From assembly GCF_900113005.1 (NCBI RefSeq), contig NZ_FONW01000001.1:558001-622000 (forward strand): DNA of 64,000 nt. The letters run 5' to 3'. Below, piece by piece: positions 42,359-48,468 of this stretch. Position numbers and translations under genes: made by a program. The number at the start of each line of letters is the position of its first letter. Position 1 is the stretch's first letter. The notes under the pieces were generated by a model. It searched no databases and was not told where the DNA came from. It saw only the letters and a list, made by a program, of their open reading frames with translations. The stretch is from Sunxiuqinia elliptica (GTDB lineage: Bacteria > Bacteroidota > Bacteroidia > Bacteroidales > Prolixibacteraceae).

Positions 42359-42457
42359 AATCTGTACTTAATCTGTACTTAATCTGTACTTAATCTGTAC
42401 TTGATCTGTACTTGATCTGTTCTTGATCTGTTCTTGATCTGTTCTTGATCTGTTCTG
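42359..42457 (+). repeat. 11-bp tandem repeat, nine units
   Basis: Nine consecutive 11-bp units: AATCTGTACTT four times, GATCTGTACTT once, GATCTGTTCTT three times, GATCTGTTCTG once. The variants change in order along the array, as expected from stepwise duplication. It ends 136 bp upstream of the HlyD-type start at 42593. The period is close to one helical turn, so a DNA-binding or phase-variable promoter function is possible. Confidence 0.95.
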
Positions 42458-42592
42458 GATCGTGATCGTTTGCTTGCCTGCTTAATAGCGTTATAAAAGA
42501 GAAATTATATGTTTTTGACAATGTTCCTGTTTGCCAATGAGCAGTGGTGGTATTGTCTAATCGTTATTAACTCGATTAAAAAGCGGAAAAAT

Positions 42593-43742
42593 ATGGGATC
42601 ACCAATATTTCCTAAAGAGATTATAAATGTTTCTGTTGAGCATCATTTTGCACGATTTAGTCGGAAATCAAGTCTAATCTATATCGTAGTACTATTGTTT
42701 CTTGTGGTTACAACAACATCGTTATTTTTAATAAAAACAGAAATTACGGTACAAAGTAGAGGCATTTTCCGTTCATCATCTGAGCCTGCAGAACTAGTTT
42801 CACCGGTAGTCGCCCAAGTAGTCAAATCTAATCTAGAAGAAAATCAATCTGTTTTATTTGGAGATACTTTGGTTTGGCTTGATTGTAAGAAGCAATCGGA
42901 GCGGATTACTCATATTGAAAGAAGGATCTTTGAAAATGAAGCCTATTTGAATGATGTTTCCTCCTTGCTGAGCTTTAGGTATTCGGATTTAGAAACCAGT
43001 CTTTATAAAACAACTCACGCAGAATACCGCCAAAAGCTTTCGGAGTTTGATATGCAGATCGAATTATTTCAGAAATCATTTATGCGGGCCAAAATGCTAT
43101 TTGATAAACAAGTGATTCCTGTAGCTGAGCTTGAGGATAAACAATTTCAATTGGATAAAGTACTGGAAGAGAAGCAGATTTATATTCAAATGAGCCGGAA
43201 TGAGTGGCAACAACAAGCTGTTAGTTATCAGCAAGATAATAAGGCTTACTTAAGCGAAATAGAGAGCCTGAAAAGCGAAATAAAGAATTATGCCATAACA
43301 GCTCCGACCACAGGGCACATAACTAATTACAATGGTATAAAGCCAGGAGGTTTTGTTACTATCGGACAAACAATAGCCATCGTACACCCTAATGATCATG
43401 TTATCGCAGAGAACCTTGTTGCGCCGGAAGATATAGGCTATTTGCAAAAAGAGATGCAAGTTATTTTTCAGGTATGATGCATACAATTACAACCAATGGG
43501 GGGTGGCAACAGGTACTATTATCGATATCTCAAATGGGATTTACTTTGTCAACAATCAGCCGTTTTTTAAAGTACGGAGTAGTATTGACCAGCAGTACCT
43601 ATCGTTAAGAAATGGTTTTACTGGTGAATTAAAAAAGGGGCTTACAAATACAGCGAGGTATAGAATTACGAAACGTACACTTGCCCAATTATTATTTGAT
43701 AAAACAGATAGTTGGCTTAATCCTAATATAATTTCAGAGTAG
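42593..43742 (+). pseudogene. HlyD-type membrane fusion protein interrupted by a 1-nt insertion
   Basis: Start at the ATG at 42593 gives an N-terminal membrane helix (~residues 27-47, LIYIVVLLFLVVTTTSLFLI), a lipoyl half, long helices (~90-220) and the second lipoyl half ITAPTTGHITNYNGIKPGGFVTIGQTIAIV. At 43475 the frame hits TGA. Skipping one base there continues in the next frame as VDAYNYNQWGVATGTIIDIS, which is the standard HlyD beta-domain continuation, to 43742. One extra nucleotide therefore splits the gene. It would bridge the exporter and TolC for peptide secretion. Could be a sequencing error, a true mutation, or a +1 frameshift site. 22 bp before the C39 exporter. Confidence 0.85.
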
Positions 43743-43764
43743 CTTCTTTTTAATTCTAGTGTTT

Positions 43765-45930
43765 ATGAACATAAAAATAAAACAACGTGATATTACAGAT
43801 TGTGGAGCTGCCTGTTTGGCTTCTGTGGCTGCTTATTACAGCCTTAAATTATCTGTTTCAAAAATCCGACAGTGGGCAGGAACAGATAAAAAGGGGACTA
43901 ATGCCTGGGGATTGATAAAAGCAGCTGAAAAAATGCGGATGACCGCTAAAGGAGTGAAAGCAACTTCTGCAGCCTTAACAGAGGTTCCATTGCCTGCAAT
44001 TGCACATGTCATTGTAAAAGAAAAACTGCAACATTATGTTGTTATTTATAAAGTAACTTCCTCCTATGTTGAAAAAATGGATCCTGGAACTGGTAAATTG
44101 GAAAAACAACCCATTGAGGATTTTGAAAGAGAATGGACAGGCATTTTAATTTTACTATCTCCTTCCGGTGATTTTGTTGCAGGAAATGAGAAGGTCTCAA
44201 ATTTTAAACGCTTTCGATTTCTACTTCATCCGCACCGGAGAACACTTTTACAAACTTTGTTTGGTGCAGCAGTTTTTACCATACTTGGATTAGCAACCTC
44301 TATCTACATTCAAAAAATTACCGATCATGTTCTCATAAATGGAAATCGTAACCTTTTAAACCTGCTGAGTATTGTGATGATTATTATCTTATTGCTTCAG
44401 GTTTTTATTGGTTCCGTTCAAACCATATTGGTGTTAAAAACAGGGCAATTAATTGATGCCCGTTTGATTTTAGGATATTATAAGCATTTATTAAAGTTGC
44501 CTCAACGTTTTTTCGATACCATGCGTACCGGCGAAATTGTCTCGCGGATTAATGATGCTGTAAAAATAAGGGCATTCATTAATGATTCCATGATTAACTT
44601 CATCGTTAACCTGTTTATTGTAATTTTTGCCTTTGCGCTCATGTTTGTTTACAACTGGAAGCTAGCGCTAATTATGTTGTTAGTAATTCCCCTGTTTGTA
44701 TTGCTTTACCTAACGGTTAACTATCTGAATAAAAAACGCGAACGAAAAATGATGGAGCAGGCGGCAGAGTTGGAATCTCAGTTGGTGGAATCCATTAATT
44801 CAGAGCGGACGATAAAACAATTGGGCATTGAAGGGTTTGCTAACATTAAAACAGAAGTACGCTTTATTTCTCTGCTTCATTCGTCCTATAAATCGGGACT
44901 TAATTCTGTTTTCTCCGAAAACTCATCTCTGTTTATCAGTCGAATTTTTACCATAATTCTATTATGGGTAGGGAGCCTGTTTGTGTTGAAGCAGGAAATT
45001 ACACCGGGTGAATTGATGTCGTTCTATGCACTTATTGGTTATTTTACCGGTCCTGTGTCCAGCTTGGTTGGTATGAATAAAACATACCAAAATGCCAGTA
45101 TTGCTGCCGATCGTTTATTTGAAATAATGGATTTGGAGCAAGAACCCGATGAAGATTTGGTGGATGCGACTACCGTTGACTTGGGTGATATCGTTTTTGA
45201 AAAGGTTTCGTTTAGCTATGGAACGCGTGTTGATGTTTTTGAGGATTTCAATGTAACGTTTAAGCAGGGGAAAGTTACCGCTATTATTGGCGAAAGTGGC
45301 TCGGGAAAAACAACCATTGCTGCTTTGATCCAAAAATTATATCCGGTAAACGAAGGTGCTATTTATGTAGGAAGTACTAACATTAGATATTTTAGCAATC
45401 AAAGCCTGCGACAGGTCGTGGGAATTGTTCCTCAGAACCTCGATCTTTTCAATGGAAAGGTTATCGATAACATTGCAGTGGGGGAATTTAACCCTGATAT
45501 GCAACAGGTTCTTGCCATTTGTACGCAGTTAGGAATAATTGAATTTATTGAAAAACTACCCAACGGATTTAATACCTTGGTGGGTGAACACGGGGCAACA
45601 CTTTCGGGAGGGCAAAAACAACGGTTGGCTATTGCGCGTGCATTGTACCGAAATCCACAAATACTAATTATGGACGAAGCCACTTCTTCATTGGATGCTG
45701 ATGCTGAAAACAAGGTTCAGGAAACCATGCGTAAGTTACAGGCTGAGGGGAAAACAGTAGTAATAATAGCACATCGTTTAAGTACGGTTTTAATGGCCGA
45801 TAATATTGTGGTGCTGGAAGATGGAACGTTAATTGAACAGGGGATTCATGACGATCTTTATGCCCAGCAGGGGAAATACTACTCACTTTGGCAAAAACAA
45901 ATGCCGGCTTTAACAAAACAAAATCTTTAA
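43765..45930 (+). CDS. Peptidase-containing ABC exporter (C39 peptidase-TM-ATPase, PCAT)
   Basis: 721 residues from the ATG at 43765 (GTG at 43759 in frame). N-terminal C39 peptidase: QRDITDCGAACLAS with Cys13, His90 (LQHYVV) and Asp106 (MDPGTG), all three catalytic positions intact. Six membrane helices span ~165-445. The ATPase shows Walker A GESGSGKTT, signature LSGGQKQRLAIARAL, Walker B ILIMDEATSSLD and the H-loop IAHRLST. These exporters cut leader peptides after a Gly-Gly pair and export the mature peptide. The three small GG-leader peptides 0.4 kb downstream are the obvious substrates. Confidence 0.96.
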   Translation: MNIKIKQRDITDCGAACLASVAAYYSLKLSVSKIRQWAGTDKKGTNAWGLIKAAEKMRMTAKGVKATSAALTEVPLPAIAHVIVKEKLQHYVVIYKVTSSYVEKMDPGTGKLEKQPIEDFEREWTGILILLSPSGDFVAGNEKVSNFKRFRFLLHPHRRTLLQTLFGAAVFTILGLATSIYIQKITDHVLINGNRNLLNLLSIVMIIILLLQVFIGSVQTILVLKTGQLIDARLILGYYKHLLKLPQRFFDTMRTGEIVSRINDAVKIRAFINDSMINFIVNLFIVIFAFALMFVYNWKLALIMLLVIPLFVLLYLTVNYLNKKRERKMMEQAAELESQLVESINSERTIKQLGIEGFANIKTEVRFISLLHSSYKSGLNSVFSENSSLFISRIFTIILLWVGSLFVLKQEITPGELMSFYALIGYFTGPVSSLVGMNKTYQNASIAADRLFEIMDLEQEPDEDLVDATTVDLGDIVFEKVSFSYGTRVDVFEDFNVTFKQGKVTAIIGESGSGKTTIAALIQKLYPVNEGAIYVGSTNIRYFSNQSLRQVVGIVPQNLDLFNGKVIDNIAVGEFNPDMQQVLAICTQLGIIEFIEKLPNGFNTLVGEHGATLSGGQKQRLAIARALYRNPQILIMDEATSSLDADAENKVQETMRKLQAEGKTVVIIAHRLSTVLMADNIVVLEDGTLIEQGIHDDLYAQQGKYYSLWQKQMPALTKQNL

Positions 45931-45956
45931 GTTGAATAACATTAAAAACGATAGAA

Positions 45957-46310
45957 ATGGCAAAACTATTTAATCAAATTGAACTGATAGAGCGAATTGA
46001 CCAATTAATTCGCTTCAGGGCAACAGGGAATCCCAAAGCTTTGGCCGAAAAGTTTAGTGTATCTGAATCAACGATCTATAGAATTATTGAGACTATAAAA
46101 GAATTAGGTGCCCCTGTAGAATACAGCTTGGTATGCCAAAGCTACATTTATACCGAAGAAGTCAATTTTTTATGCGGCTTTTTCACACGCAACCTTTCAC
46201 AATCAGAATACAAAAAGGTAAATGGAGGCTTTCAAAACTTAAAACTAGTTTCTGAAAAAATGACTTCACTGTCAAAATTTGAGAGTGGTACTTTTTACAT
46301 TAGTGGGTGA
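45957..46310 (+). CDS. Small helix-turn-helix regulator of the peptide island
   Basis: 117 residues. N-terminal winged-HTH of the HTH_11/DeoR-like type: LIERIDQLIRFRATGNPKALAEKFSVSESTIYRIIETIKELGAPVEYSL; the rest is a short C-terminal part without known domain (SYIYTEEVNFLCGFF). It lies 26 bp after the exporter and 58 bp before the first GG-peptide. Similar small HTH proteins accompany GG-peptide genes in Bacteroidota (from memory). Probably a local transcription regulator of the peptide genes. Confidence 0.75.
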   Translation: MAKLFNQIELIERIDQLIRFRATGNPKALAEKFSVSESTIYRIIETIKELGAPVEYSLVCQSYIYTEEVNFLCGFFTRNLSQSEYKKVNGGFQNLKLVSEKMTSLSKFESGTFYISG

Positions 46311-46367
46311 GTATCGCGCGCAACTCATAAAGAAAAAGCTATTATTAACTCACAAAAATTAAAGATT

Positions 46368-46535
46368 ATGGAAAAAGAATTAGTTTTAAATCAAGCCAGA
46401 GTGCAAGAACTGGGCATGGAAGAACTTAAAGCCGTTGAAGGAGGAATGTTTGATCCGATTTCCTTATGGGTTCAACGCCAAGTTGCAGAGTTTCTAACCG
46501 GATTTGAAGCAGGGTGGAATGACAACAAGTATTAA
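46368..46535 (+). CDS. Double-glycine leader peptide 1 (bacteriocin-like, 55 aa)
   Basis: ATG 46368 to TAA 46533-46535, 55 residues, not found by length-filtered gene calling. Leader M1-G26 ends in MEELKAVEGG: L-x-x-E/D-L-x-x-V-x-G-G, the canonical C39 cleavage signature. Predicted mature peptide: 29 residues, MFDPISLWV...GWNDNKY, amphipathic with a GFEAG (GxxxG) motif; no cysteine. First of three consecutive peptide genes, 11 bp before the next. Role as bacteriocin subunit or signal peptide is inference. Confidence 0.85.
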   Translation: MEKELVLNQARVQELGMEELKAVEGGMFDPISLWVQRQVAEFLTGFEAGWNDNKY

Positions 46536-46546
46536 ATGAAATTATT

Positions 46547-46693
46547 ATGAAAAAATTAACTTTCGAGCTAACAACTTTTGACCTGAAAGAGATTTCTGGC
46601 GGTGGTCTATATGAAGTCGGCTATTCATTTGGACGTTATTGTGCTAATGCCTTTGATTTTTACAAGGGAATTTATGATGGAATATTTCAATAA
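46547..46693 (+). CDS. Double-glycine leader peptide 2 (bacteriocin-like, 48 aa)
   Basis: ATG 46547 to TAA 46691-46693, 48 residues. Leader ends FDLKEISGG (residues 11-19). Predicted mature peptide: 29 residues, starts GLYEVGYSFG, ends YDGIFQ, aromatic-rich, one cysteine, with two GxxxG motifs (GYSFG and GIYDG). Starts 11 bp after peptide 1 and ends 10 bp before peptide 3. The stretch YEVGYSFG aligns with YYIGKNIG of peptide 3. Below the size cut-off of usual annotation. Confidence 0.83.
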   Translation: MKKLTFELTTFDLKEISGGGLYEVGYSFGRYCANAFDFYKGIYDGIFQ

Positions 46694-46703
46694 TTTTAAA
46701 GTT

Positions 46704-46853
46704 ATGGAAAACATAAAAGTAGCGACATTAGATTCAAAAAGCCTCAAATTAATAAACGGGGGTGATACTAGATCTTATTATATTGGCAAAAACATAGGAG
46801 ATGGTTTACGTAAAGCATTTATAGCTTGTGGTATTATATCTTTGTTTTTGTAA
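46704..46853 (+). CDS. Double-glycine leader peptide 3 (bacteriocin-like, 49 aa)
   Basis: The frame is open from 46602, but only the ATG at 46704 gives a leader: MENIKVATLDSKSLKLINGG, cleavage after Gly20. Predicted mature peptide: 29 residues, DTRSYYIGKNIGDG...GIISLFL, with GKNIG (GxxxG), a basic middle and a hydrophobic C-terminal half with one cysteine. Followed by an intrinsic terminator, so the three peptide genes likely form the end of the operon or a separate transcript. Confidence 0.83.
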   Translation: MENIKVATLDSKSLKLINGGDTRSYYIGKNIGDGLRKAFIACGIISLFL

Positions 46854-46863
46854 AAGCTCTAGC

Positions 46864-46890
46864 AAAGGCCGGTTTTCAAACCGGCTTTTG
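46864..46890 (+). terminator. Intrinsic terminator after the peptide genes
   Basis: GCCGGTTT (46868-46875) and AAACCGGC (46878-46885) are complementary; the innermost pairs probably open into the loop. TTTT follows. It separates the GG-peptide genes from the CPBP genes. Confidence 0.8.
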
Positions 46891-46912
46891 TATATCGATA
46901 AAACCCTGTTGA

Positions 46913-47590
46913 ATGCTTAAACAATTCTTTAGTTTTCTTTTGCATCCAAATTTAAGAAATGAACCAAGATCGTTAAATGTTCATGGTTTATTTGTACTGT
47001 TAGGGCGATTTTTGCTGGCTTACTTTGGGGTGGCTATTTTAAGTTCACTCGCATTTTTCCCAATATTGAGAATGATGGATTTATTACCTGAAAGCAAAAT
47101 AGCCACTTCTGAGATTCCCCTATCTTTTAAACTAATAGTTTTTGTTCCTATTTATGAAGAGGCAATATTCCGGCTTCCATTAAGATTTACGAAACGGAAT
47201 CTTGCGATCTCGCTGGCTGCATTGTTTTTTTTAGTGTTTTATCATGTATTTGAACTTTACATGTTGATTGCAATTGCGGTTTTTATTGCTTTAATTCCCT
47301 CTTTTGTCACGATTCCTGCGTTTGTTATTTTAAGGGCTGGTACTGTTTGGAAGAAGTATTTTCCTCTGTTATATTATGGGTTCGCACTAAGTTTTGGAAT
47401 ATTGCACTTATTTAATTTTGAGAATCTGAGATTGGCCCACTTTTTTGTTTTTCCGTTTATTGTATTTAATCAGATTGTAATGGGCTTAATGTTAGGATAT
47501 ATTCGGGTAGAGTATAAATATGGATTTATTTATAGTATCATTTTACATTTTCTGATCAATCTCCCATTAATCCTACTTTCTCATCTTTGA
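46913..47590 (+). CDS. CPBP-family intramembrane protease (candidate immunity protein) 1
   Basis: 225 residues, very hydrophobic, about six membrane helices. CPBP (Abi) motifs: YEEAIFR (EE at 82-83, Arg87), FGILHLFN (F-x-x-x-H) and LHFLIN near the C-terminus (H-x-x-x-N). CPBP proteins beside GG-peptide genes commonly give self-immunity, or process the peptides (family knowledge). The gene begins 22 bp after the peptide terminator, in the same AT-rich island. Confidence 0.8.
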   Translation: MLKQFFSFLLHPNLRNEPRSLNVHGLFVLLGRFLLAYFGVAILSSLAFFPILRMMDLLPESKIATSEIPLSFKLIVFVPIYEEAIFRLPLRFTKRNLAISLAALFFLVFYHVFELYMLIAIAVFIALIPSFVTIPAFVILRAGTVWKKYFPLLYYGFALSFGILHLFNFENLRLAHFFVFPFIVFNQIVMGLMLGYIRVEYKYGFIYSIILHFLINLPLILLSHL

Positions 47591-47634
47591 TGTTTGAGAT
47601 AAGGTTGAAATAGAAGCTCACAAACAAAAGCTTT

Positions 47635-48468
47635 ATGAAACTAACCGGTTGGCAAAGAGTACTTTTAATCTTGATTCCATTTTTGTTGATTTCAGGAATA
47701 TTTCAGTTTGCAGGAGCATTGTTGTTTAATATTCCACTCTATGCAAATGGAGAAATGACTTCTTTACAAAAGATGGTACTTGCACTTTTTAATCTAATGG
47801 GAACCATTACTATTGTTTGGTTTTTTGTGTGTCGGATTGATCAAGAACCTTTTAAACGCACTGGACTAATGCAGCCAACACCTATTGCTGGTTTAGGAAT
47901 AGCTGCCGTGCTAACTTGTGCAATGTTTGTCGTTGGCTTCTTTTTTTTGGAGTGGTGGGGTGAGCTTAATTTCGTAGCAATTCAGTTCGATTTTGCTGCT
48001 GGTTTTTACTTACTAGTCGCTTATTTGGCTATTGCAATTTTGGAAGAACTTCTCTTTCGAGGATATGTTCTGAGGAATTTGTTACGCTCATTTCGAGAAG
48101 CAACAGCGTTGATTTTATCTTCGTGCTTGTTTAGTATTTTTCATCTTTTGAATCTGACGATTAGCTGGTTAGGAGCAATTAATATCTTCCTGGTAGGTCT
48201 TTTATTTGGAATTGCTTATTTGTGTTACCGCAGTTTGTGGTTGCCCGTTTGCATCCATTTCTTTTGGAACTTTAGTCAATCTCTTTTAGGATTTCGGGTT
48301 AGTGGTCAAGATGCTTACTCGATGATTGTTATTGATTTGCCGGAAAAGAATAGTTGGAATGGTGGTGACTTTGGTTTCGAAGGTTCCATACTCGCAGTCG
48401 TTTGCCAGTTGGTCGGGATTGCTCTGTTTTGGCGGTTTTATCAAAAAAAGAAAGGCCTTGCCGGTTAA
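47635..48468 (+). CDS. CPBP-family intramembrane protease 2
   Basis: 277 residues, about eight membrane helices. Motif 1 LEELLFRGYVLR (EE at 137-138, Arg142), motif 2 FSIFHLLN, motif 3 CIHFFWNFSQ are all intact, matching an active CAAX-like glutamic metalloprotease. It is 44 bp after the first CPBP gene, and a second immunity/processing protein for the peptide system is one possibility; general membrane proteolysis is another. Convergent with galE. Confidence 0.82.
   Translation: MKLTGWQRVLLILIPFLLISGIFQFAGALLFNIPLYANGEMTSLQKMVLALFNLMGTITIVWFFVCRIDQEPFKRTGLMQPTPIAGLGIAAVLTCAMFVVGFFFLEWWGELNFVAIQFDFAAGFYLLVAYLAIAILEELLFRGYVLRNLLRSFREATALILSSCLFSIFHLLNLTISWLGAINIFLVGLLFGIAYLCYRSLWLPVCIHFFWNFSQSLLGFRVSGQDAYSMIVIDLPEKNSWNGGDFGFEGSILAVVCQLVGIALFWRFYQKKKGLAG

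Follow-up and report, generated by a model that had tools for sequence, protein, structure and literature searches.

Does a small DNA-binding protein that is encoded between a peptide exporter and its putative substrates tell the cell how busy that exporter is? The question is raised by an island at 42.5-48.5 kb of a 64,000-nucleotide stretch of Sunxiuqinia elliptica DNA, the whole of which is referred to as the window. The island encodes an HlyD-like adaptor, a C39-ABC exporter, an HTH_11 protein, three double-glycine (GG) peptides and two CPBP-type membrane proteins, all on the plus strand.

An island for the export of GG peptides

The exporter, a C39 peptidase / ABC exporter (PCAT; 43759..45930), combines a C39 domain, a TMD and an ATPase (PF03412, PF00664, PF00005) and scores 532.3 bits against TIGR01193, above the curated cut-off of 523.85. 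Its C39 peptidase domain aligns to PCAT1 (4ry2; E 7.8e-37) and also matches the ComA and LahT chains, PCAT1 being the closest solved chain. Cys15, His92 and Asp108 sit in C39 peptidase motifs aligned to PCAT1, where Asp108 is presumably the counterpart of a catalytic residue; the original prediction of a C39-ABC exporter with three catalytic residues is thus borne out. For PCAT1 itself, the catalytic residues are given as Cys and His (PMC6959990).

Peptides 1, 2 and 3 (46368..46535, 46547..46693 and 46704..46853) comprise 55, 48 and 49 residues. The GG junction falls after residues 26, 19 and 20 (leaders 46368-46445, 46547-46603 and 46704-46763), which leaves a predicted mature part of 29 residues in each (46446-46532, 46604-46690 and 46764-46850), in agreement with the lengths and GG positions originally predicted. 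All three are short ORFs beside a C39 exporter with a leader that is hydrophobic at -12, -7 and -4 and ends in GG, our definition of a double-glycine leader; their leader-profile scores are 20.5, 14.4 and 10.0. Among the 74 small ORFs of the window that do not overlap large genes, only the three island peptides carry the strict leader motif. By score, 208 small ORFs in the window and 153 loci carry a leader, some of these loci being copies of one and the same place, compared with one in five shuffles of the inter-gene DNA (2.29 Mb in total). At least one GG-leader ORF was found in 53 of 65 related exporter loci across Bacteroidota, so that the peptide frames are conserved beside homologous exporters, the check that had been proposed for them.

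Exporter, leaders and the wide conservation of the leaders support the reading of the locus as an island for GG-peptide processing and export. The peptides are best explained as three small linear class II-type peptides, whose leaders the exporter's C39 domain would remove by cleavage behind GG. As such, the island is a further example of an already known type. Its description as possibly new for this lineage was too strong, as C39-exported class II peptides of Bacteroidota, the bacteroidetocins, have already been published (PMC6671954).

Two genes for CPBP-type proteins follow the peptides. The second product (47635..48468) matches PF02517 with 74.2 bits, above the cut-off of 22.4, and its predicted place in the CPBP intramembrane protease family stands. 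The same cannot be said of the first (46913..47590), a divergent CPBP-type membrane protein that stays below the cut-offs of both PF02517 (19.9 bits) and NF052640 (31.9 bits versus 220). The CPBP proteins probably provide immunity, and CPBP genes are present somewhere in 22 of 65 related loci. The mature parts are highly diverse (200 distinct), and GxxxG-type mature peptides recur as neighbours. The mature part of peptide 1 belongs to a family of 34 and that of peptide 3 to one of 16, many of them with YxxGxxxG, both families being loosely defined. Peptide 1 also matches Bacteriocin_IIc weakly, with 16.7 bits against a cut-off of 27.1, and for peptide 2, a match with an E value no higher than 0.05 was obtained from 3 of 139 other genomes of the family (best E 1.8e-7). 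Because of the recurring GxxxG neighbours, the CPBP genes and the weak Bacteriocin_IIc match, the island peptides are likely to be bacteriocins. They could also be signals, since C39 exporters export signals too (PMC6363468, PMC7018657) and the cassette contains a regulator. However, the diversity of the mature parts, the GxxxG-type neighbours and the CPBP genes all speak against signalling, which we consider unlikely.

The adaptor gene carries a net +1 frame break near 43473, which separates an N-terminal part (42593..43477; PF13437 29.7 bits, TIGR01843 42.1 bits) from a C-terminal part in a different frame (43503..43742; TIGR01843 15.2 bits, E 0.0079). Searched apart, neither piece reaches the TIGR01843 cut-off of 208.65 bits; the C-terminal part is 76% identical to that of a gene of Maribellus luteus (L004), an environmental relative whose adaptor is intact. 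The predicted HlyD-type adaptor is present as sequence, but its gene is split by a net one-base shift, and the island is not complete, as had been claimed, in this assembly. A single ORF matches both adaptor parts in 56 of 65 related loci, and one frame is kept between them in 59 of the 60 loci where both were found, on which ground a programmed frameshift was rejected. The break may be a sequencing or assembly error or a real mutation. With its adaptor broken, the circuit of the island may be dead in this genome. We see a considerable chance, if somewhat below even, that the island is decaying, in which case the adaptor would be a pseudogene and nothing would be exported through it, as the contrast with the one-frame relatives would suggest. 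On the other hand, the remaining island genes are open, the peptide leaders and the HTH segment are intact, the break could stem from the assembly, and the genome has another adaptor, next to its second C39 exporter (L003 9816-11129).

Directly upstream of the adaptor gene lie 9.3 copies of an 11-bp tandem repeat (42360..42461, no strand assigned; TRF score 148), which a whole-genome pattern search with up to 2 mismatches matched at this array only. The array is a possible operator array. A conserved operator was rejected: in 59 related loci whose adaptor start could be located, the DNA preceding it (shorter than 700 bases in a few) contained nothing comparable, only arrays of at most 2.9 copies in 6 loci.

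A leader-like segment behind the wHTH domain

The small HTH protein that had been predicted between exporter and peptides (45957..46310) is confirmed by HTH_11 (PF08279; 32.1 bits, cut-off 25). Residues 77-91 (46185..46229) form a GG-leader-like segment behind the wHTH domain that ends in NGG and is followed by a 26-residue tail (46230..46307). The original prediction did not mention this segment, although it is the most informative feature of the island. With L-12, E-8, V-4, G-2 and G-1, it is built like the exporter's own leaders. Its score of 9.8, next to 10.0 for the leader of peptide 3, is reached by a fraction of 0.0006 of 3,274 control sites.

In the structural model of the protein (m443cc2225542), residues 1-70 are confident and residues 104-117 have a pLDDT below 50. 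Two models agree in placing the leader-like segment beyond the confidently folded part, one as a weak helix and the other as unstructured. No PDB entry reached E 0.001 in a fold search, in which wHTH proteins such as BirA and LysR-, MntR- and MarR-type regulators came nearest, and a PDB sequence search with the HTH profile gave no match at E 0.01. Among 27 HTH relatives, PF08279 matches 20 at E 0.001 or better; NCBIfam holds no family specific to these tailed proteins, and its matches at E 0.01 were weak and general, TIGR00122 being the most frequent with 5 of 27 members.

Relatives of the HTH protein were scored with a profile built from 137 distinct peptide leaders, using positions -15 to -3 only. 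The training ORFs came from the surroundings of C39 genes in the same loci and included no HTH ORFs; one HTH ORF among the control ORFs makes the comparison conservative. All 58 distinct HTH tails exceed the 95th percentile of the control sites, and 56 of them also exceed the 99th. The motif known from the literature (hydrophobic -12 and -4, acidic -8) is carried by 24 of the 39 HTH copies in which [GA]G follows the domain, compared with 59 of 4,996 control sites.

In an alignment of 27 HTH proteins, conservation past the domain is highest, among well-filled columns, in the five at -12, -8, -4, -2 and -1. The last G is present in 26 of 27, and conservation falls past it. With the exception of -7, these peaks coincide with published C39-recognition positions. 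Position -7, at which C39 favours a hydrophobic residue, is not conserved in the 27 proteins, although 17 of 26 rows in a Flavobacteria-weighted set have L or V there. A similar boundary is seen in substitution rates pooled over 24 pairs, which were hand-chosen, are not independent and have dS near saturation: dN/dS is 0.127/1.44 for the wHTH domain, 0.154/1.05 for the leader-like segment and 0.355/0.571 after GG. In 22 of the 24 pairs, dN is higher after GG than before it (sign test).

The segment is linked to GG peptides. HTH matches were sampled rather than collected exhaustively (40 + 24 + 24 stretches, weaker and long-frame matches omitted), from genome sets that overlap in part; the 40-stretch set was found with a model that includes the tail and both 24-stretch sets with the wHTH part only. 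In these 90 sampled copies, a GG-peptide ORF lies at most 1.3 kb downstream of 28 of 33 tailed copies versus 6 of 57 untailed ones, and in the subset found with the wHTH-only model the counts are 14 of 17 and 5 of 30. Three of the five tailed copies that have no downstream peptide ORF end at a contig edge, and three of the six untailed copies that do have one carry no GG behind the domain at all. All 29 genomes that contain a tailed copy (12 + 17) also encode a C39 domain, against a background of 44 of 61 relatives. At closer range, no C39 ORF lies within 5 kb of 10 of the 33 tailed copies, and 17 of the 57 untailed copies do lie within 5 kb of one, six of these 17 with a GG-ending tail that scores too low.

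The segment could also serve structure or dimerisation in this HTH subfamily and be unrelated to the exporter, its likeness to leaders being convergent and its linkage inherited. The tree of the 70-residue domain is poorly resolved, with one supported independent pair, an independent-contrast test of tail versus peptide linkage has no power, and shared ancestry could be part of the association. The lack of conservation at -7 would fit this view as well. Against it, the conserved positions are those that C39 reads in published work, and the segment is outside the confident fold in both models. In addition, at most 26 residues follow the domain match in 45 of 56 copies without a downstream peptide ORF, compared with 4 of 34 with one, and the orphan tailed copies L127 and L133, which have no exporter in the fetched flanks, still adjoin GG-peptide ORFs. 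We therefore regard a purely structural role as very unlikely.

Possible coupling of transcription to export

The likeness of the HTH tail to the export signal of the peptides suggests that the cell may couple peptide synthesis to the status of its export apparatus. C39 domains have been described to read leader positions -15, -12, -7 and -4 and to require GG for binding and cleavage, with the N-terminus of the bound leader in the cytosol (PMC7018657, PMC6959990). Precursors tagged with MBP are cut (PMC6363468). The exporter RtgAB, in contrast, reads residues -22 to -18 (PMC7018657), and a folded domain immediately before the leader is thus perhaps not tolerated by every exporter.

From the observed segment, its consensus fit, its constraint and its linkage to GG peptides, we infer docking, cutting and the sign of regulation. 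The regulator would be a small wHTH protein with a C39-recognised leader ending in GG behind its DNA-binding domain, followed by a short tail. The leader-like segment would dock in the leader groove of the C39 domain, while the DNA-binding domain would stay in the cytosol, where the N-terminus of an ordinary leader lies. There, the regulator would be held or cut after GG, in competition with precursor peptides for the same groove. The free, uncut fraction would then report idle exporter capacity and set transcription of the peptide cassette. On balance, we favour this view: it seems fairly probable to us that the HTH regulator docks on the C39 domain, where it is probably cut, and thereby couples transcription to export.

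The order of parts, leader, GG and short peptide, also fits a protein that is itself a precursor. Here, the tail after GG would be cut off, exported and serve as a pheromone, and the DNA-binding domain would be an enlarged leader that may sense that same tail peptide. In line with this, the tail is 10-35 residues long in all but one of 33 tailed copies, motifs are shared within clades (LKENF.., ..NIFPCFFYARNE.., ..LLDGT[IL]ISLL), and the pooled tail dN/dS of 0.62 is still below 1. However, constraint falls at GG, and one of the 33 copies (L229) stops exactly there, without a tail. Furthermore, F or Y is found at -3 in 28 of 73 HTH segments, picked by score, versus 5 of 125 peptides, and A at -2 in 16 of 73 versus 0 of 125. 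Since these positions differ from those of true substrates, the HTH protein may be cut slowly or not at all in many lineages. A pheromone precursor thus appears improbable, and docking on the C39 domain remains our preferred reading.

Whether Bacteroidota possess a general class of export-coupled one-component regulators, wHTH proteins with a C39 leader as sensory element, we consider evenly balanced. In such a class, the protease domain of the exporter would be the signal receptor of a gene circuit and leader occupancy the signal. Our literature search, thin on subscription journals, found no HTH protein with a GG leader, and none appears in the available text of PMC6671954, PMC6363468, PMC10986499, PMC10352776, PMC13289728, PMC6959990 and PMC7018657. 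If true, the proposal would describe a compact way of sensing export capacity and widen the substrates of C39 exporters to transcription factors. The HTH tail would then also mark orphan GG-peptide cassettes, such as those at L127 and L133.

Comparison with known systems

The matching of GG-peptide synthesis to export is best known from Gram-positive quorum-sensing circuits. Here, the regulator appears to read the exporter itself via a decoy or substrate leader. In flagella, the level of the secretion-coupled regulator FlgM follows the state of an export machine. The island regulator would share this dependence, but FlgM uses another exporter, involves no leader cutting and is an anti-sigma factor rather than a wHTH protein.

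The island resembles the PCAT systems PCAT1, ComA and LahT in its domain layout, its C39 motifs and its GG leaders with hydrophobic -12 and -4 and acidic -8. In the available PCAT literature, the substrates are peptides or toxins, whereas in the island a putative DNA-binding regulator carries a leader-like segment. Neighbouring short peptides with GxxxG motifs are shared with class IIb two-peptide bacteriocins, from which the island differs in giving weak family matches only (NF038034, 18.5 bits for peptide 2, cut-off 37).

Bacteroidetocins are likewise made by Bacteroidota with a GG leader and a C39-ABC exporter. As described, they have at least two Cys, whereas the mature parts of peptides 1, 2 and 3 contain 0, 1 and 1 and so fall outside this rule. 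Their regions encode a five-TM protein and mostly a thiol oxidoreductase (PMC6671954), whereas the island has the HTH protein and CPBP genes; no Pfam match to a thiol oxidoreductase was found among nine island translations. The words 'regulator' and 'helix-turn-helix' occur 0 times in the bacteroidetocin main text (PMC6671954).

Bacteroidales RiPP clusters share GG precursors with the island and, in most clusters, PCATs, but are described as modified-peptide clusters. One of them, BGC3, holds an HTH-domain gene of presumed regulatory function and no PCAT; in the available description, a leader in this protein is not mentioned (PMC10352776). HetC of Nostoc, a C39-type exporter like that of the island, governs cell differentiation. 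In the model put forward by its authors, an N-terminal portion remains once a substrate has been cut, and this portion interacts with a regulator (PMC10986499). While the available HetC text does not identify this substrate (PMC10986499), the island encodes a candidate regulator-substrate directly beside its exporter.

Island layout and peptide genes

The island lies in a draft Bacteroidota assembly of 5.09 Mb in 26 contigs. All its genes are on the forward strand. An HlyD-type adaptor, in two frames at 42593-43477 and 43503-43742, comes first, followed by a C39-ABC exporter at 43759-45930 and an HTH_11 protein at 45957-46310. Behind these lie three GG-leader peptides at 46368-46853, with mature parts of 29 residues each, and finally two membrane proteins of the CPBP type at 46913-48468. 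The exporter scores above the TIGR01193 cut-off, its peptidase domain aligns with PCAT1 (E 7.8e-37), and its closest named relatives in our scan are from Maribellus luteus (Prolixibacteraceae, 83% identity) and an uncultured Prolixibacteraceae bacterium (81%). By homology, the island belongs to the C39/GG-peptide kind. Just upstream of the adaptor gene, an 11-bp tandem array of 9.3 copies (42360-42461) is a possible operator. It is not conserved among relatives, and a genome-wide pattern search gave this array as the sole match.

The original prediction described the island as complete. Its components are indeed present, but a net shift of one base near 43473 splits the adaptor gene in the assembly. 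Among related loci, the two adaptor parts share one frame in 59 of the 60 where both could be located, and a single ORF matches both in 56/65. The break is either a mutation or a sequence error. Adaptor genes split into two ORFs also occur in Dyadobacter sp. LHD-138 (locus L040, 9196-10359), an uncultured Croceitalea (L028, 5489-6653) and a Flavobacteriaceae MAG (L066, 5747-6886), with split points not exactly at the junction broken here. Elsewhere in the same genome, a further C39 exporter of a different type adjoins the rpsL operon (L003); the rpsL neighbourhood of Maribellus luteus (L004) holds an island of the HTH type. This neighbourhood is possibly a hot spot for exporter islands.

Comparison with relatives bears out the three predicted peptide genes as real. 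Scanning named genomes for the exporter yielded 65 loci, many truncated by contig ends, of which 53 hold one or more small ORFs whose score indicates a leader. Relatives of the HTH protein occur in 49/65, with a leader-like tail in 44/65, and a CPBP gene anywhere in the locus in 22/65. For the 39 loci that span 14 kb or more, the counts are 37 (leader ORF), 33 (HTH relative), 29 (HTH with leader-like tail) and 18 (CPBP). The window and 153 fetched loci contain 208 leader-bearing small ORFs, against a single one over five shuffles of inter-gene DNA taken together. Mature parts are highly diverse (200 distinct), but peptides 1, 2 and 3 each belong to a loose family with members at other loci (34, 23 and 16 members), the latter two overlapping. 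Peptides resembling 2 and 3 repeatedly lie side by side (e.g. loci L034, L045, L056, L214 and L216), a recurrence that would fit multi-peptide class II bacteriocins.

A leader-like segment in the HTH protein

The HTH proteins themselves surfaced during the leader scan. Their alignment shows a winged HTH (wHTH) domain of ~70 residues and, behind it, a leader-like segment (-12 L, -8 E, -4 I/V, closing with [GA]G). What follows this pair is a variable tail, 10-35 residues long in 32/33 copies. In the window's protein the segment comprises residues 77-91, the last three being NGG. We derived a position profile from 137 distinct peptide leaders only and scored it without the two glycines; of the 58 distinct HTH tails, 56 exceeded the 99th percentile of 3,274 [GA]G sites from larger proteins that served as controls. 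A motif taken from papers alone matched 24/39 HTH copies versus 59/4,996 control sites. According to studies on solved complexes and mutants, C39 domains read -4, -7, -12, -15, the GG and a Glu at -8 (PMC6363468, PMC6959990, PMC7018657). The conserved positions of the HTH segment fall among these except for -7, which is not conserved in a set of 27 HTH proteins and is L or V in 17/26 rows of a Flavobacteria-weighted set. Judged from these sequence comparisons, the HTH protein bears a copy of the export signal.

Pooled over 24 pairs of relatives, dN/dS was 0.127/1.44 for the wHTH domain, 0.154/1.05 for the leader-like segment and 0.355/0.571 for the part behind the GG, and dN was higher behind the GG than before it in 22/24 pairs (sign test). 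This drop in constraint at the predicted cut site is what a leader followed by its cargo would show. The segment lies outside the confident fold in both AlphaFold models: a low-confidence helix (82-91) in the window's protein, with pLDDT <50 from residue 104 onward, and unstructured in a Tenacibaculum relative. Leaders bound to PCAT1 are described as helical at -10 to -4 (PMC6959990), equivalent here to residues 82-88.

Some adaptor-like proteins also start with a leader-like segment, e.g. IEIRSEEVQEI[IL]G. One motif scan found six (L003 9816-11129 and L004 1767-3071, both near rpsL; L027 12244-13536; L137 3716-5041; L170 1880-3136; L178 16425-17729), scoring -0.9 to 8.4 and mostly lacking GG. 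Such a segment may let the adaptor dock on the exporter likewise.

Tailed HTH copies and their neighbours

HTH relatives were drawn from overlapping sets of 61 relatives, 247 class genomes and 395 phylum genomes; 88 stretches around matches, together with the window, gave 90 distinct copies. A GG-peptide ORF lies within 1.3 kb downstream of 28/33 tailed versus 6/57 untailed copies (Fisher p 1.2e-12). Three of the five tailed exceptions run into a contig edge, and three of the six untailed ones end in GG and scored too low. The subset found with a wHTH-only model gave 14/17 versus 5/30. In most untailed copies (48/57), no more than 26 residues follow the domain match. Shared ancestry possibly explains part of the association, since the wHTH-domain tree lacks resolution.

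Linkage to a C39 ORF within 5 kb is looser (23/33 tailed versus 17/57 untailed) because cassettes can stand without an exporter: loci L127 and L133 carry HTH and peptide genes with no exporter in the fetched flanks. Each of the 29 genomes that encode a tailed copy (12 + 17) has a PF03412 match somewhere, against a background of 44/61 relatives. Near a contig edge in genome G048, locus L130 combines a tailed HTH protein, a downstream GG-leader ORF and two long ORFs, of 506 and 415 aa, which we take to resemble radical-SAM-type peptide modification genes.

A proposed docking model and known systems

In the model we propose, regulator and precursors would compete for the C39 groove. Published work reports that a bound leader has its N-terminus in the cytosol (PMC6959990), that residues more than ~18 positions away from the cut site can mostly be dispensed with, RtgAB being an exception (PMC7018657), and that MBP-tagged precursors are cut (PMC6363468). 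By analogy, a DNA-binding domain in front of a C39 leader would plausibly be tolerated. The regulator could be cut, and its short tail perhaps exported; alternatively, it could be held, uncut or slowly cut. F/Y occupies -3 in 28/73 HTH segments versus 5/125 peptides, and A occupies -2 in 16/73 versus 0/125. These residues would favour the held or slowly cut regulator in lineages whose HTH site thereby departs from true substrates, and one HTH copy that stops exactly at the GG (locus L229) also speaks for it.

The island's peptides differ from bacteroidetocins in failing their Cys rule (PMC6671954). In Nostoc, the C39 exporter HetC has been proposed to act in a regulatory circuit, its substrate being unknown in that account (PMC10986499). 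In the open literature, we found no transcription regulator described as bearing a C39 leader; if docking holds true, the leader-bearing regulator would represent a new class of regulator.
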